Part shown: in pieces, positions 41,265 to 48,108 of the stretch
Layout: each line of letters starts with the position of its first letter
Numbering within the stretch: the first letter of the stretch is position 1
Origin: Acidobacteriota bacterium
GTDB taxonomy: Bacteria; Acidobacteriota; Polarisedimenticolia; SMYD01
Reading direction: 5' to 3'
Assembly: GCA_004356015.1 (NCBI GenBank)
Contig: SMYD01000033.1
Location: 1 to 51,330, forward strand
DNA: 51,330 nucleotides
Made by a program: the position numbers and the translations under genes
The notes under the pieces: generated by a model
Seen by the model: only the letters and a program-made list of their open reading frames with translations
Told to the model about the DNA's origin: nothing
Database searches by the model: none

Positions 41265-41680
41265 CAGGATTCCTCCTCACCGCACATCTGTTCCATGATC
41301 CAGCGTAAACGCCGGCCGGCGTCGGCGTTCGCCGGTGGCGCAGCCGGCGGCCGCCGGCCTCCTGCAGGTGGCGGTTTGCTCCCGGGTTCCATGACCCGGC
41401 CTGCCAGCGGCGGCACGTCCTTCCCGGCCGCAAGCAGGGAACCCCTCAGGCGCACCAGTTCGGCCTCCCATGCCGGCGACGGCAAACCGATGATCCAGAC
41501 CCCCTGCCGGATTTCCAGGAGGGGCAAGCGGCGGATCAGGCCCTCACCCGCCAGTTCCCGCCAGCGGCGGGCGGCATGGATCAGGGCGTCCATGCGCGGC
41601 GTGACGACAGGCTGGATGGCACTCAATCGTGTCGGCACCGTGCTTCCCGACATGGTTGGCTCGTCCCGGCGCCGCCTCAT
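41264..41680 (-). CDS. DUF721/DciA-like protein
   Basis: This 138-residue protein resembles DciA, the replicative helicase operator of bacteria without DnaC or DnaI. The supporting segment is ARRWRELAGEGLIRRLPLLEIRQGVWIIGLPSPAWEAELVRLRGSLL (about 37-83), the family pattern of W, G and PAWxxEL. The C-terminal third is Pro/Ala-rich and probably disordered. The ATG overlaps the mltG stop as ATGA. The assignment rests on this one segment. Confidence 0.6.
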   Translation of the reverse strand: MRRRRDEPTMSGSTVPTRLSAIQPVVTPRMDALIHAARRWRELAGEGLIRRLPLLEIRQGVWIIGLPSPAWEAELVRLRGSLLAAGKDVPPLAGRVMEPGSKPPPAGGRRPPAAPPANADAGRRLRWIMEQMCGEEES

Positions 41681-42708
41681 GGCGTCCTGGCCTCTGCCCG
41701 GTGGCTGCGCCAGAGGCGCACCGCTTTGTTGTGTTCCACGAGGCTCGGACTGAAACGGTGGCCACCCCGCCCGTCGGCGACGAAATAGAGGTCCTGGGAC
41801 GGCTGCGGATTCAGGGCTGCAGCCAGAGCGGCGCGGCCAGGATTGGCAATGGGTCCCGGAGGGAGACCGGTCCTGGTGTAAGTGTTATAGGGGTGTTCCA
41901 GATCCAGCCAGCGGGCCAGCGAACCTTCCTGCTGGATGCCGGCCAGCTGGAGCGCATAGGCGACCGTGGGGTCGCACTGCAGAGGCATACCGAGACGCAA
42001 GCGGTTCAGAAAAACGCCGGCCACGCGTCCTCTCTCCTCAGGGAGAGCGGTCTCCTTCTCCACCAGCGAAGCCAGGGCGACCCAGGATCGGGTGTTGGTG
42101 ATCGCCGGCGACGGCAGGCCTGGGCGGCCCTCGCGAAGCTGTCGGGAGACTTCCCGGAATCGCTCCACCATCACCTCCACAACCAACTCGGCGTCGGTGC
42201 TGCGGGCCAGTTGATAGGTGTCCGGGAAAAGATACCCTTCCAGATCAACAGCCTGGGAGTCGAAATCCGCCACCAGTTCGGTTCGCCCGGCGGCCGCCTC
42301 CAGATCACCTTGAATCTCCAGGTCGGACTCCGCAAGCAAGGCCACTGTCTGCCGCAGCGTGAGTCCCTCGGGAACAGTCAGCGCATGGAGAAGAACATCT
42401 CCTGCCACGAGGCGACCCAGCACCTCATGAGGTGCGGCCGCCTCAGCGAAAAGGTACTCTCCGGCCTGCAGGCGATGGCTGACGCCTTGCCACGCAGCCC
42501 GCAGGCGGAAACCCAGGGCGGAGCGGATCACACCTTCCCGGGCCAGAAGGCCGGCAACCTGGGTCACGGAGGCCCCCGCCGGAATGACAAGGATGACATC
42601 CCCCGGCAGAGGTGACGGAGGAGCCACGGCCGTCCACCCCCAGACGGAGCCCAGGAGCATCATTCCGCCGCCCACAATAAGGGCAGTCCCCTTCATCAAC
42701 CTGGCCAT
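41677..42708 (-). CDS. mltG: Endolytic murein transglycosylase MltG
   Basis: MltG cuts nascent glycan strands at the inner membrane and sets their length. The 343-residue protein has one N-terminal membrane helix (about 7-27), a LysM-like part (about 38-110) and the YceG catalytic domain. It shows the active site Glu217 in LASLVEKETALPEE, LEGYLFPDTY and PYNTYTRTGLPPGPIANPGRAAL. GGAGCAGG lies 11 bases before the ATG. It follows ruvX by 6 bases; ruvX-mltG adjacency is common. Confidence 0.95.
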   Translation of the reverse strand: MARLMKGTALIVGGGMMLLGSVWGWTAVAPPSPLPGDVILVIPAGASVTQVAGLLAREGVIRSALGFRLRAAWQGVSHRLQAGEYLFAEAAAPHEVLGRLVAGDVLLHALTVPEGLTLRQTVALLAESDLEIQGDLEAAAGRTELVADFDSQAVDLEGYLFPDTYQLARSTDAELVVEVMVERFREVSRQLREGRPGLPSPAITNTRSWVALASLVEKETALPEERGRVAGVFLNRLRLGMPLQCDPTVAYALQLAGIQQEGSLARWLDLEHPYNTYTRTGLPPGPIANPGRAALAAALNPQPSQDLYFVADGRGGHRFSPSLVEHNKAVRLWRSHRAEARTP

Positions 42709-42714
42709 GGTCAG

Positions 42715-43131
42715 TCAGCCTGCTCCCGCGAAAGCCTGCGCGTCCAGCCATCCCTGGAGAATCAGTATGGCAGCCAGGCGATCACGTTCCTGGCGCCGGC
42801 GCTTTCGCCGGGTGTTTCCCTCCAGAAGGGTTCGCTCGGCCTGAACCGTGGTCAATCTCTCATCCCAGAGTTCGACAGGGAGATGCACGCGCCCGGCCAG
42901 TTGGGCGGCGAAGGTCCGCGCCGCCAGGGCCTCAGGACCTTCCTCGCCACTGAGACGAAGGGGAAGACCGACAACGATACGAGCCACATCCTGTTCCTCC
43001 ACGAGGGATGCCAGGGCAGCCAGGACGGCCTTTCGCCCGTGCACTTCCAACGTCGGCAATCCCTGCGCGATAATACGCAGCGGATCGGACACCGCCACGC
43101 CGATCCTTCTGGCGCCGAGATCCAGGCCCAT
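42715..43131 (-). CDS. ruvX: RuvX/YqgF RNase H-like nuclease
   Basis: This 138-residue protein has the YqgF fold: GLDLGARRIGVAVSDPL at the N-terminus, IVVGLPLRLSGEEG in the middle, and LWDERLTTVQAERTLL followed by RDRLAAILILQGWLD. YqgF proteins process pre-16S rRNA ends and have a Holliday junction resolvase fold. I chose the ATG at 43131; the frame extends further but runs into the preceding cytochrome gene. It begins 13 bases after that gene. Confidence 0.93.
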   Translation of the reverse strand: MGLDLGARRIGVAVSDPLRIIAQGLPTLEVHGRKAVLAALASLVEEQDVARIVVGLPLRLSGEEGPEALAARTFAAQLAGRVHLPVELWDERLTTVQAERTLLEGNTRRKRRRQERDRLAAILILQGWLDAQAFAGAG

Positions 43132-43144
43132 GACACGGCCGGTC

Positions 43145-44614
43145 TCAGTGCCGGATGCGGGGCCAGGAGATGTAGAAGTCGAAGTCAGGCGAATTCTCCG
43201 GGTCATGGCAGCCCAGGCAGGAGCGCGCTCCTGCGGCGCCATAACGCCCACTGCTGTCTTTGACGTGCAGGGTGCCAGGTCCATGGCACGACTCGCACTG
43301 CACATGAATCAGTTCAGGGGTCGCCTTGGCGTTGACGAAGCCATCACGACGGCCAAAGCCCACGGTGTGACAGCCGACACATTCTTCACTGAAGTCCTGA
43401 TTCTTGGCGACCAGAGTGTCGAAGGCCGTGGCATGACTGGTCAGTTTCCATGAGAGCATGGTCTCCAGGTGGCATGTGCCACAGGTTTCCGACCCAGCAT
43501 AAGTCGCCCGCGAGAGCGGGATAGGCTCCCGCTCCACATGCTCAGTGGCCAGATCGCGATTGATATCGTTCTCTTTGCCCAGAACTTCCTGGGTGAGCAT
43601 CTGCAATTCCGGATCCTGAGGGTAATCCCGGTTCAAATAATGATTGCGGCGCCGGATACCGGGCTTCCCTTCTCCGTCGGCCGGGAGATGGACTCTGACC
43701 TCAGCCAGATACTTGCCCTGGTTACCGGAAAAGACGATGGGCACGCCGGCGGCCACATCCTGGGCCCTGGACAGCACGCCGCCGCTGGCGCCGATGATCA
43801 GATCCAGACCCGGCGCCTCCCGGGCCAGTTGGCGGGCCTGGCTGATGGACAGCGAAGTGAGGGCAACCACCAGATCCACCTCGTCCCGCATCTCCTTCAC
43901 CAGCGTGCGGGCCACTTTGAACGGACTGGCAATGACAATATTGCGACCATCCCGGGTGGCCTTGAGAAAGGCTGTGTTGTAACGGTTCAGACCCATGATG
44001 CCGATGCGGATCTCCCGCTCTCCATGCTTCACCTTGTGGAGTACCCAGGGTTTCACCAGGGTGGAGCCGTCATCTTCGAAATGAATATTGGCGGAGACAA
44101 AAGGGAAGGTGGCTTGTTTCTGCATGGCCTGAAACGTTTCATACCCTCCGGCCAGTTCCCGTTCGCCCAGCATGACCGCGGCGTATCCAATGATGTTCAA
44201 GCCCTGGATGATGCCTTCGTTGCGAACCTTAGCGCTGGCAATGCCCACGGCGGCAAAATTCCCCGCATCCACCCAGACCAGGGGCGACTCCGGATAGGCT
44301 CCCTGAAACATCTGTCCGTATCCAGCCCGCCGGGCCAGACCCCCACCAGGGTTCTTCTGTCAGCCGCAGGGTTCGATCTTACCCATGGTGTCACCGGTGG
44401 CAAAAAAGGTCACGTCAGGCTCAGGCCCGGGTTCAACCCCCACCGTGCTGTACTCGGTGGGCACGATGCCGCCGGTCTGGGGCGCCGGGACCGCCAGGGC
44501 CACCAGGGTTCCCAGGGACAGAATCGCGAGGAACGACAAATACGCCCGGAGCGGGCCAATGGATTCGGAGTTCAACGGAGGTCCCGATTGATTGCCATGC
44601 TGAGATGTTGTCAT
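43145..44614 (-). CDS. Candidate selenoprotein: 5'-nucleotidase-like domain with tetrahaem cytochrome tail, UGA at codon 85
   Basis: This 489-residue protein is read through TGA at 44362-44360 (codon 85). Codons 1-84 give a membrane anchor or uncleaved signal (about 25-45) and DVTFFATGDTMGKIEPCG. After the TGA come QKNPGGGLARRAGYGQ and 387 more residues in the same frame. Known relatives read EPCGC with GGLARR following, so the TGA replaces the second Cys, giving Cys83-Gly-Sec85. A UshA-like phosphoesterase-type domain follows. Four haem sites lie near the end: CGTCH 378, CVGCH 412, CESCH 440 and CLGCH 466. It is probably periplasmic. The alternative is a recent nonsense mutation. Confidence 0.78.
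44320..44340 (-). promoter_or_regulatory. SECIS-like hairpin after the in-frame UGA
   Basis: On the minus strand GTCTGGCCC (44340-44332), loop GGC (44331-44329), GGGCTGGAT (44328-44320) forms a 9-bp stem including G-U pairs. The apical loop begins 29 bases after the TGA and has G in its first two positions. Both fit the general rules for bacterial selenocysteine insertion elements. Confidence 0.6.
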
Positions 44615-44620
44615 GAAGGG

Positions 44621-44660
44621 ATTATATACCTCCCGGTGGCAGGGTCGTCCAGCACGACCC
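44621..44660 (-). promoter_or_regulatory. Promoter -10 and inverted repeat before the selenoprotein gene
   Basis: A perfect TATAAT lies at 44626-44621 on the minus strand. Across the -35 region is GGGTCGT (44642-44648), five bases, ACGACCC (44654-44660), a perfect 7-bp inverted repeat and possible operator. No clear -35 hexamer is visible. The predicted start almost coincides with the ATG at 44614. A ribosome site GGGAGG is present but 14 bases from the ATG, so the transcript may be leaderless. Confidence 0.45.
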
Positions 44661-44745
44661 CCACGAATTGCTCCTCCTTGGGATGCAGATCCTGGCCCAG
44701 CGGCCGTTGTGAGAACCGGCGGCGCGCTGCTACGATGGCGCTCCC

Positions 44746-45393
44746 ATGCCCTCCCAGCCACGCCTGATTCTTGCCTCGGCATCCCCACGCCGACTCCTTC
44801 TCCTGAGGAACCTTGATCTCTCCTTCATGGTCCGCACCAGCCACATCGCCGAGACTCGCGTGCCCGGCGAGGGTGCTCGTCAGCGGGCCGTCAGGCTGGC
44901 CCGGGAAAAGGCCCGGGATGTTGCCTCCCGACTGCGGCAGCCGGCGTGGGTGCTGGGAGCGGATACCCTCGTGGTGGCAGGCACGACGGTTCTGGAAAAA
45001 CCGGTGAATCGGGATGATGCCCTGCGCATGCTGGACCGGCTCTCGGGATGCCGGCATACGGTCATCACGGGAATCTGTCTCACTCCGGCACACCTGCCCG
45101 GACGACGGGAAAGCACTTCGTGCCGTACGACCAGGGTGACATTCTCTCCCCTGTCGCACCACCAGAAGAACTGGCTCCTGACCGATGACGAATACAAGGA
45201 CAAGGCCGGGGCCTATGCCGTTCAGGGGCGCGCGGCGGCTTTCATCAGCAGCCTGACCGGATCGCCATCCAACGTGATCGGCCTACCCCTGGACCTGGTG
45301 TATGAATTCCTGGAAGAGGCGGGCTACATGCCTGCACCGGTCAGGCGGCGCCACCATCCTGCAGCCAGGTCCGGTACCCGGCAGCGCTCATGA
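44746..45393 (+). CDS. maf: Maf-family nucleotide pyrophosphatase
   Basis: Maf hydrolyses noncanonical nucleoside triphosphates. The 215-residue protein opens [15 protein letters not shown] and contains [23 protein letters not shown], a kinked [16 protein letters not shown] and [12 protein letters not shown], all family marks. The C-terminal tail is basic ([16 protein letters not shown]). A weak promoter, TTGTGA (44707-44712), 18 bases, TACGAT (44731-44736), places the start just before the ATG. Its 3' end overlaps the convergent gcvH by 53 bases. Confidence 0.92.
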
Positions 45394-45724
45394 GATCTTC
45401 TCCGCCACTGGCCACACGCACCCGCAGCAACCAGCCTTCGCCGTAAGGGTCCTGGTTCACCAGCTCGGGGTGGTCGACCAGTGCTCCGTTGACCGCCACA
45501 ACTTCGCCGTCCACCGGAGCAAACAACTCTGAAACGGCCTTGACCGACTCCACCGTGCCAATCACCTTGCCGGTGGTGAGGCTGTCCCCTTCCGCGGGCA
45601 GTTCCACGAAGACCAGGTCTCCCATCTCTTCCTGGGCATGGTGGGTGATTCCCATGGTGGCAGTATCACCCTCCAGGCGCAGCCATTCATGCTCTTTGCT
45701 GTATTTCAGATCTTCGGGAACCAT
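45341..45724 (-). CDS. gcvH: Glycine cleavage system H protein
   Basis: This 127-residue lipoyl carrier shuttles the aminomethyl group between the P, T and L proteins. It begins [19 protein letters not shown] and carries the lipoylated Lys62 in [18 protein letters not shown] chose the ATG at 45724 because GAAGAGGG precedes it and it gives the usual length; an in-frame ATG at 45751 immediately after the gcvT stop is possible. It follows gcvT by 28 bases. No gcvP is in the window. Confidence 0.95.
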
Positions 45725-45752
45725 CAGGCCCTCTTCAGGCTTGCCAGGCATG

Positions 45753-46859
45753 TCAGCCTGGCGGCCGGCGATAGAACGGGAGAGGCACCACTTCCGCCTC
45801 AACCTCGTTGCCGCGAATGACAATCATCAATTTCGTACCAGGTTCACCATGGGCAACAGGCAGATAAGCCATGCCGATGGCGCGACCCAGTGTCGGTGAA
45901 TGAGTTCCGCTGGTCACAATGCCCACCTCCCGGCCGGCGACCCGAACCCCGTGCCCGGGACGGGCGATGCCGCGCCCTGTGACCGTGAAGCCGGTGAGAC
46001 GATGGCTGACTCCTTCTTCTTTCTGCCTGGCCAACGTCTCGCGACCCATGAAATCGCCTTTCTTCAGTTTGACGATGAAGCTGAGTCCTGCCTCCAGAGG
46101 GGTGCGGGTCGTGTCGATGTCCTGGCCGTAAAGAGGAAGGGACGCCTCCAGGCGCAGGGTATCGCGGGCTCCCAGGCCCACCGGAACCAGCCCATCCCCT
46201 TCTCCCTCGGCCAGCAACCGCTGCCAGACCGAGGGGGCCATGGCAGAAGGAAGGTAAATCTCGAACCCATCCTCCCCGGTGTAACCGGTGCGTGAAATCA
46301 AGAGCGTGGCGCCGTCCATGGGTTCCATGGTGAAACGGAAAGAGCCCATATGCTGCAGGTCCTTGCCGAGAAAACGGCCCAGGATATCTGCCGCCCGCGG
46401 GCCCTGCACGGCCAGGAGTGCGTATTCCAGGGACAGGTCGCGGACCTCGACGTCACCGTGCACATGGTCCCGGATCCAGGCCAGATCGCCGGCTGTATTG
46501 GCGGCGTTCACCACCAGAAGAAAGCGACCCGCGGCGAGGCGATAGATCAGAAGGTCATCCACAAAGGTCCCCGCCTGGGTGAGCAGGGCCGTGTACTGAG
46601 CCTGCCCTGTCGCCAGACGGCTCACGTTGTTGGGCGTCATCTCATCAAGAAACGCTTCCGCCTGGGCACCGGACACTTCGAGTTCGCCCATGTGGCTGAC
46701 ATCGAACAGTCCGGCGGCCGTGCGCACCGCCGCATGCTCGGCCATGACCCCACGGTACTGGACAGGCATCTCCCAGCCGGCGAAAGGAACCAGGCGCGCG
46801 CCATGGCGAACATGCTCGGCGTGAAGGGATGTGCGGCGCAGAGTCGTTTCAGGGTTCAC
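45753..46859 (-). CDS. gcvT: Glycine cleavage system T protein (aminomethyltransferase)
   Basis: GcvT transfers the methylene unit from the H protein to tetrahydrofolate. The 368-residue protein shows [42 protein letters not shown] and [21 protein letters not shown], all typical. I chose the GTG at 46859, with GGGAG about 8 bases upstream; the longer frame overlaps the promoter region. It is the first gene of a gcvT-gcvH pair read from the promoter at 46904-46933. Confidence 0.95.
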
Positions 46860-46865
46860 TGGAGG

Positions 46866-46879
46866 TCTCCCGCGGGAGA
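46866..46879 (-). promoter_or_regulatory. 14-bp palindrome over the gcvT ribosome site
   Basis: TCTCCCGCGGGAGA is a perfect palindrome 7-20 bases upstream of the GTG. In the mRNA its second half contains the GGGAGA ribosome site, so a small hairpin could mask it. Confidence 0.4.
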
Positions 46880-46903
46880 GGCCATCCCCCCGGATCCACA
46901 TGC

Positions 46904-46933
46904 ATGGTAACGAGGGCCTCGAGGGATCGTCAA
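46904..46933 (-). promoter_or_regulatory. Sigma-70-type promoter of gcvT-gcvH
   Basis: On the minus strand TTGACG (46933-46928), an 18-base spacer and TACCAT (46909-46904) predict a start near 46897. The leader of about 38 bases is too short for a glycine riboswitch. It overlaps the end of the hemD gene. Confidence 0.45.
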
Positions 46934-48108
46934 GATGCGCCGGCAAAGTGCCGGGCCAGGGCTGCGACCAGATCGGGAACGGTGAAACGAACTGCCTCGA
47001 TGGTCACGTTGAACCCCAAGTCGCGAGCCGTCTTGCCGGTGACGGGTCCGATGCAGGCAACGGCAACGCCCCCGTCCCTGAGGAGTTGCGGCGCCGACGC
47101 AGGCTCCAGGAGTGTTTTGAAGCGGCTGACGGTGGAAGAAGAGGTGAAGGTCACGGCATGAATCCGTCCGGCGCTCAGTTCCTTGCACAGATTCGCCGGC
47201 AAGCCCGAAGACGCCACCGCGCGGTACACCACCAGAACTTGCACCACAGCGCCCTGTCGCCGCAGGGTTCGCGGCAGAATATCCCGCGCCGTTTCAGCCC
47301 GGGGTATGAGAATCCGGCTGCCCGTGAGGTCCTCACCAGCCAGCTTCTCCAGCAGGCCTTCGGCATCAAACTGTTCCGGGACCAGATCGATCCGCAGACC
47401 GTGCCGGGCCAGCCGCCCGGCAGTGGCTGAGCCGATGGCAGCGACGCGGGCAGAGGCAAAGGCGCGCAGATCAAGTCCCCTCTCCCGCAACCGCTGGAAG
47501 AAGCAGTCGACACCATTGACACTGGTGAAGATCACCCACGTCTGCCGGCCCAGTTCGTCCATGGCCCTGTCGATCTCCTCCATGTCGGCCATGGGCTCGA
47601 TGCGGACGGTGGGACAGAGAATCGCCTCGGCGCCGGCTTCCTCGAGCCACGCGACCATCTCAGCGGCCTGATGGGGGGGGCGGGTCACCAGCACGCGCCT
47701 GCCATGCAGGGGGCGGCAATGAAGCGATGTCTGCACCTCAGTGGCCAAGGCAACAGAGAGAGGCAGGCCAGGCACGACTTCCACGGTGACACCCTGGCTC
47801 CGCAGAGCCTTCAGGGCGTCCGCTCCATGACCATCCACCATGGGGTCGCCGTGAGTCAAATAGACCACCACGAGGCCCCGGGCGGCAGAGTCGGCGACCC
47901 TGTCCAGCAGGTCCCCCTCCTGGTCCCCCATGCTGGCCGCACCCTCCCGCATCAAGGGCAGAACGCTGGCGTGGAGATCTGGCGGCAGCACCAGGAAATC
48001 CGCAGCGGCCACCAGCCCCCGGGTGCGCAGGGTCGTCAGCAGGGGATCGCCAGGGCCCCAGCCGGCCAGATACACGACTCCGGCACGGGCCGGAGCGCTC
48101 TCAGTCAT
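46930..48108 (-). CDS. hemD: Uroporphyrinogen-III synthase fused to a half-size tetrapyrrole methylase domain
   Basis: Residues about 137-392 are a full HemD (RRVLVTRPPHQAAEMV, IFTSVNGVDCFFQRL, VTFTSSSTVSRF, ACIGPVTGKTARDLGF), which closes hydroxymethylbilane to uroporphyrinogen III. Residues 1-136 match only the N-terminal half of a CobA/SUMT methylase: VYLAGWGPGDPLLTTLR, LTHGDPMVDG and VVPGLPLSVA are present, and then the protein passes straight into HemD. CobA-HemD fusions normally carry about 250 residues of methylase. The missing half forms part of the SAM site, so methyl transfer is unlikely. The start at 48108 overlaps the hemC end by 8 bases. Confidence 0.88.
   Translation of the reverse strand: MTESAPARAGVVYLAGWGPGDPLLTTLRTRGLVAAADFLVLPPDLHASVLPLMREGAASMGDQEGDLLDRVADSAARGLVVVYLTHGDPMVDGHGADALKALRSQGVTVEVVPGLPLSVALATEVQTSLHCRPLHGRRVLVTRPPHQAAEMVAWLEEAGAEAILCPTVRIEPMADMEEIDRAMDELGRQTWVIFTSVNGVDCFFQRLRERGLDLRAFASARVAAIGSATAGRLARHGLRIDLVPEQFDAEGLLEKLAGEDLTGSRILIPRAETARDILPRTLRRQGAVVQVLVVYRAVASSGLPANLCKELSAGRIHAVTFTSSSTVSRFKTLLEPASAPQLLRDGGVAVACIGPVTGKTARDLGFNVTIEAVRFTVPDLVAALARHFAGAS

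Follow-up and report, generated by a model that had tools for sequence, protein, structure and literature searches.

The question raised by this locus is whether a gene interrupted by a single TGA encodes a complete selenoprotein or is a broken copy of a cysteine-containing relative. The DNA analyzed, hereafter the window, covers positions 1 to 51,330 of contig SMYD01000033.1 (51,330 nucleotides) of Acidobacteriota bacterium (assembly GCA_004356015.1, lineage SMYD01). On its minus strand, a frame runs for 490 codons from an ATG at 44614 to a TGA stop ending at 43145 and would specify 489 residues; the sole internal TGA, at 44362-44360, is codon 85. This codon is preceded by GDTMGKIEPCG and followed by QKNPGGGLARR, while codons 86-489 (404 codons) are intact and include four CxxCH motifs (C378, C412, C440 and C466). 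On re-reading the frame, the coordinates, the motif, the count of 404 codons and the four CxxCH sites given by an earlier, sequence-only reading were all correct. The C-terminal part matched PF13435 (Cytochrome_C554) with 55.5 bits (cut-off 20.8), and its CxxCH motifs are invariant or nearly so in the aligned relatives. The features of the locus are collected in Table 1.

Table 1. Coordinates of the features of the selenoprotein locus and of its neighbors, in positions of the window.
Feature	Position	Strand	Basis
Complete UshA-like tetrahaem selenoprotein gene, predicted Sec at 85, stop 43147-43145	43145..44614	(-)	Frame, NF041198 score, full-length kin in the same genus
Cys83-Gly84-Sec85 motif (Sec predicted)	44360..44368	(-)	C83, G84 and C/Sec85 unchanged throughout 41 aligned sequences
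SECIS-like hairpin, 9-bp stem, GGC triloop	44320..44340	(-)	Predicted fold, covariation in 27 TGA forms, not in Cys forms
Helix near the N-terminus (residues 21-40), probably for export or membrane anchoring	44495..44554	(-)	AlphaFold2 helix
5'-nucleotidase/metallophosphatase-fold domain, residues about 64-340, most metal ligands replaced	43595..44425	(-)	
Tetrahaem cytochrome c554-like domain, residues about 372-489	43148..43501	(-)	Pfam PF13435, four CxxCH
RuvX/YqgF-like neighbor, begins directly beyond the selenoprotein stop	about 42715-43131		By eye from ORFs
MltG-like neighbor	41677-42708		By eye from ORFs
Maf-like neighbor	44746-45393		By eye from ORFs
Glycine cleavage GcvH-like and GcvT-like neighbors	45341-46946		By eye from ORFs

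The gene had been presented as a candidate for a new selenoprotein family. This claim fails, because the full protein matches the NCBIfam model NF041198 (UshA_like_PCGU, "UshA-like (seleno)protein") with 278.8 bits (E 7.9e-83), above the curated cut-off of 275, and because the family has been in print since 2008, when "COG0737, UshA-like, CxU" was counted in the Global Ocean Sampling selenoproteome (Zhang and Gladyshev, PMC2398784); it appears again in the tables of two later reviews (PMC9312934, PMC13188914). The P-C-G-[U/C] motif of NF041198 is found in the same place, as EPCGU at residues 81-85, and the 519 profile positions cover both the nucleotidase-fold and the haem regions, with the stretch 43175-43636 of the window matching profile positions 357-518 (E 1.7e-38; multihaem C-terminal region about 345-518). 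The product of 43145-44614 is an additional member of this already known family, and a divergent one, its score being barely above the cut-off. In the tree, it forms a branch of its own together with a sequence of the same genus. A second model of UshA-like (seleno)proteins, NF049981 (UshA_like_Sel_2), was matched only weakly (49.3 bits, far under its cut-off of 140), and its reported motif is CxxU rather than CxU (PMC13188914).

Relatives were taken from whole-genome searches of a phylum-wide sample, since a contig-level scan had given one real relative and one distant nucleotidase and nothing more; the homologue in a metagenome-assembled genome (MAG) of the same genus was added to them. The MAG of the same genus (G247; its locus is identical in sequence to JAPUKF010000284.1 of MAG KW1-S15_183) encodes a 489-residue homologue with 82% identity and a TGA at the identical codon. 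Across 57 distinct sequences, that of the window included, codon 85 reads TGA 43 times and TGC or TGT 14 times; the alternation of Cys and TGA, which the sequence-only reading had proposed to look for in an alignment of homologues, is thus confirmed. Within the intact motif, Cys is the only residue that replaces TGA. In a tree built with the codon-85 site masked, the TGA/Cys label changes seven times, and at least five of these changes are forced by well-supported branches. SelA was found in all 39 tested genomes bearing a TGA form; the three in which the test detected no SelA (G006, G046 and G193) gave no TGA form. An unrelated residue at this position in homologues had been named as evidence that would count against selenocysteine; the 57 sequences carry TGA or Cys only, while one relative from a genome without SelA (L078, G193:C196) has lost the CGU/CGC motif (EDPGLARAPGGG) with no Cys replacement. 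Besides, two genomes (G019 and G153; loci L091 and L040) hold two copies each, one with Sec and the other longer and with Cys; the longer copies group apart on the tree.

These observations bear directly on the possibility that a nonsense mutation or a sequencing error created the TGA in a Cys gene, which would make the locus a pseudogene or an assembly artefact. The occurrence of Cys forms in the family and the lack of a detected tRNA-Sec in the draft assembly would fit such an origin, but the same TGA stands at the same motif position in the MAG of the same genus and in dozens of distant relatives, it is accompanied by a covarying hairpin, SelA, SelB and SelD are encoded in the genome, and SelA accompanies the TGA form in every tested genome. 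The sequence-only reading had not expected a plain nonsense mutation to hit this one position and leave the 404 downstream codons intact; given the alternation across independently assembled genomes, we regard a mutation or an error as very unlikely.

The genome of the window is a 2.73 Mb draft in 196 contigs, 92% complete, in which we detected SelA (401 bits), SelB (319.8 bits, or 341.9 bits with the neighboring stretch) and SelD (340 bits). A genome without selB or tRNA-Sec had been considered incompatible with the selenocysteine interpretation. SelB is present; of the four components that had been proposed for checking, selC is the one that was not recovered, as no tRNA-Sec scored above the Rfam cut-off in this draft and a motif search of the same genome gave no match. 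The best tRNA-Sec-like matches were not accepted as selC because ARAGORN reads them as ordinary tRNAs, including a tRNA-Ser beside selD. On the other hand, a tRNA-Sec above the Rfam cut-off was found in 24 of the 26 genomes searched, that of the window being among the 26, although a few weaker matches among the 24 may be other long tRNAs. The tRNA-Sec of the MAG of the same genus scored 73.2 bits and was called by ARAGORN as tRNA-SeC with anticodon tca. The DNA near this gene matches contig C9 of the window's genome at 87%, and contig C9 stops short of the expected tRNA-Sec position; most likely, the gene is missing because it falls in a gap of the assembly. The selD gene of the window's genome (L018, about 1501-2430; G000:C27:4457-5386) carries an in-frame TGA of its own (TGGUAAKVGPADL), so SelD is probably a second Sec user in this genome.

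Downstream of the codon, the predicted hairpin of Table 1 spans nucleotides 23-43, numbering from the U of UGA. When 27 TGA forms sharing a register are aligned, 93.5% of the cells of the stem (24-31/35-42) are paired and the covariation score reaches 0.350, versus 0.134 for shuffled alignments (none of 500 shuffles as high); covariation at the hairpin columns far exceeds that of slid versions. The same columns in 13 Cys forms are paired in 58.7% of the cells, with no excess over shuffles. A wider scan, in which a G was sought at the first or second loop position, gave a stem of at least six pairs in 40 of the 43 TGA forms and a triloop starting with G (GGC, GGA or GTC) in 38; these hairpins lie at four distances from the UGA, with the loop starting at nucleotide 23, 25, 29 or 32 in most lineages. 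The stem thus retains its form but not its position in the gene, and this speaks against the hairpin being a mere side effect of the encoded motif. Taken singly, the window hairpin is no more stable than its shuffles (z 0.09), its signal upon synonymous-codon randomization is weak (P = 0.071), and an Rfam search for SECIS gave no match beyond one chance match. The predicted hairpin is therefore convincing through comparison across relatives, and not from the window sequence. Its confinement to TGA forms is what would be expected of a bacterial SECIS element, presumably one bound by the SelB of this organism. With a covarying hairpin in the set of 43 TGA forms and none in the 14 Cys forms, the family also provides a clean natural experiment on the requirements of a bacterial SECIS.

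Based on the Sec machinery, the alternation of Sec and Cys, a hairpin restricted to TGA forms and the presence of SelA in all tested TGA genomes, the reading of the codon-85 TGA as selenocysteine in a Cys-Gly-Sec motif, as first suggested from the sequence alone, is strongly supported. SelB, directed by the hairpin just 3' of the codon, would insert Sec at UGA 85. If recoding or suppression instead placed Trp, Cys or some other amino acid at this UGA, the open frame on both sides would fit, as would Cys as the sole alternative to TGA in the intact motif; this explanation is highly improbable, however, since the same gene ends in a TGA stop, the genome has Sec-specific machinery, a SECIS-like hairpin follows the codon, and no relative carries Trp at codon 85. 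Overall, we are confident that the product of this gene belongs to the known UshA-like PCGU family, as an exported 489-residue protein in which SelB and the hairpin would guide Sec insertion at position 85, with a probable haem-linked redox role. Table 11 ORF calling divides the gene into pieces of 142 aa (44360-44788) and 388 aa (43145-44311), and, as gene finders using the standard code split it in this way, this copy and many like copies in Acidobacteriota are likely mis-annotated.

The AlphaFold2 model of the protein (mean pLDDT 88.2, pTM 0.83) has CD73, UshA and SoxB as its best PDB matches, while it is uncertain at the motif loop (mean pLDDT 64 for residues 81-90). The metal-ligand motifs of UshA and CD73 are DxH, GD, GNHE, H and GH. 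Among these nucleotidase ligands, only the Asp of motif II (D116) is kept, in 40 of 41 aligned proteins; positions 75, 77, 151, 254 and 277 vary across the family, GNHE has become GERE or GERD in most members, and the ligand set of an active UshA 5'-nucleotidase was not found in the window's protein. C83, G84 and C/U85, on the other hand, are invariant in all 41. The N-terminal domain thus shares the fold of UshA, CD73 and SoxB but differs from them in lacking most metal ligands and in carrying the CGU motif, and a tetrahaem domain stands where UshA has its C-terminal domain. This haem domain resembles cytochrome c554 (PF13435; PDB 1BVB) in its four CxxCH motifs and differs in being fused behind a nucleotidase-fold selenoprotein domain.

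Since Cys-Gly-Cys/Sec is invariant while most metal ligands have been lost, we infer that the protein most likely performs selenol/thiol redox chemistry outside the cytoplasm and is connected electrically to four haems; its export is implied by the N-terminal helix and the c-type haem sites. The 5'-nucleotidase-fold domain and the tetrahaem cytochrome c554-like domain would be joined in one exported 489-residue chain, which has lost most of the nucleotidase metal site and instead has an invariant Cys-Gly-Sec after the first strand. Cys83 and Sec85 would then likely perform two-electron selenol/thiol chemistry on an extracytoplasmic substrate, with the four haems carrying the electrons. As a full account, in which a 5'-nucleotidase scaffold became a redox enzyme, Cys-Gly-Sec taking over from the decayed metal site and the tetrahaem domain moving electrons, this proposal remains tentative, with a chance that we place somewhat below even. 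Alternatively, Sec may be correctly assigned in a domain that still works as a metallophosphatase (nucleotidase- or SoxB-like), with Sec or Cys as a metal ligand or as a group holding the substrate. The nearest folds, the retention of Asp116 and the position of CxU closely after motif I are consistent with this possibility, which we nevertheless consider unlikely, given the variability of ligand positions 77, 151, 254 and 277, the change of GNHE to GERE or GERD in most members, and the haem domain (where present) and invariant C-G-C/U motif, which point to redox chemistry. The redox proposal gives a testable guess at function, suggested by the tetrahaem partner domain and by the contrast of a lost metal site with a Cys-Gly-Sec that never varies.

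Some relatives of full length have no CxxCH, and ten TGA forms (L036, L034, L057, L079, L065, L033, L080, L081, L088 and L089) are likewise devoid of it; a Sec site can thus occur without haems on its own polypeptide and may be independent of them. In the fetched flanks of haem-less relatives, no haem genes were found except for an out-of-frame tetrahaem stretch in L070 (G287:C168), whose tetrahaem and UshA-like parts lie in different frames, probably through an assembly frameshift. Around the gene in the window itself (41677-46946), the neighbors, judged by eye from their ORFs, are ordinary-looking housekeeping genes.
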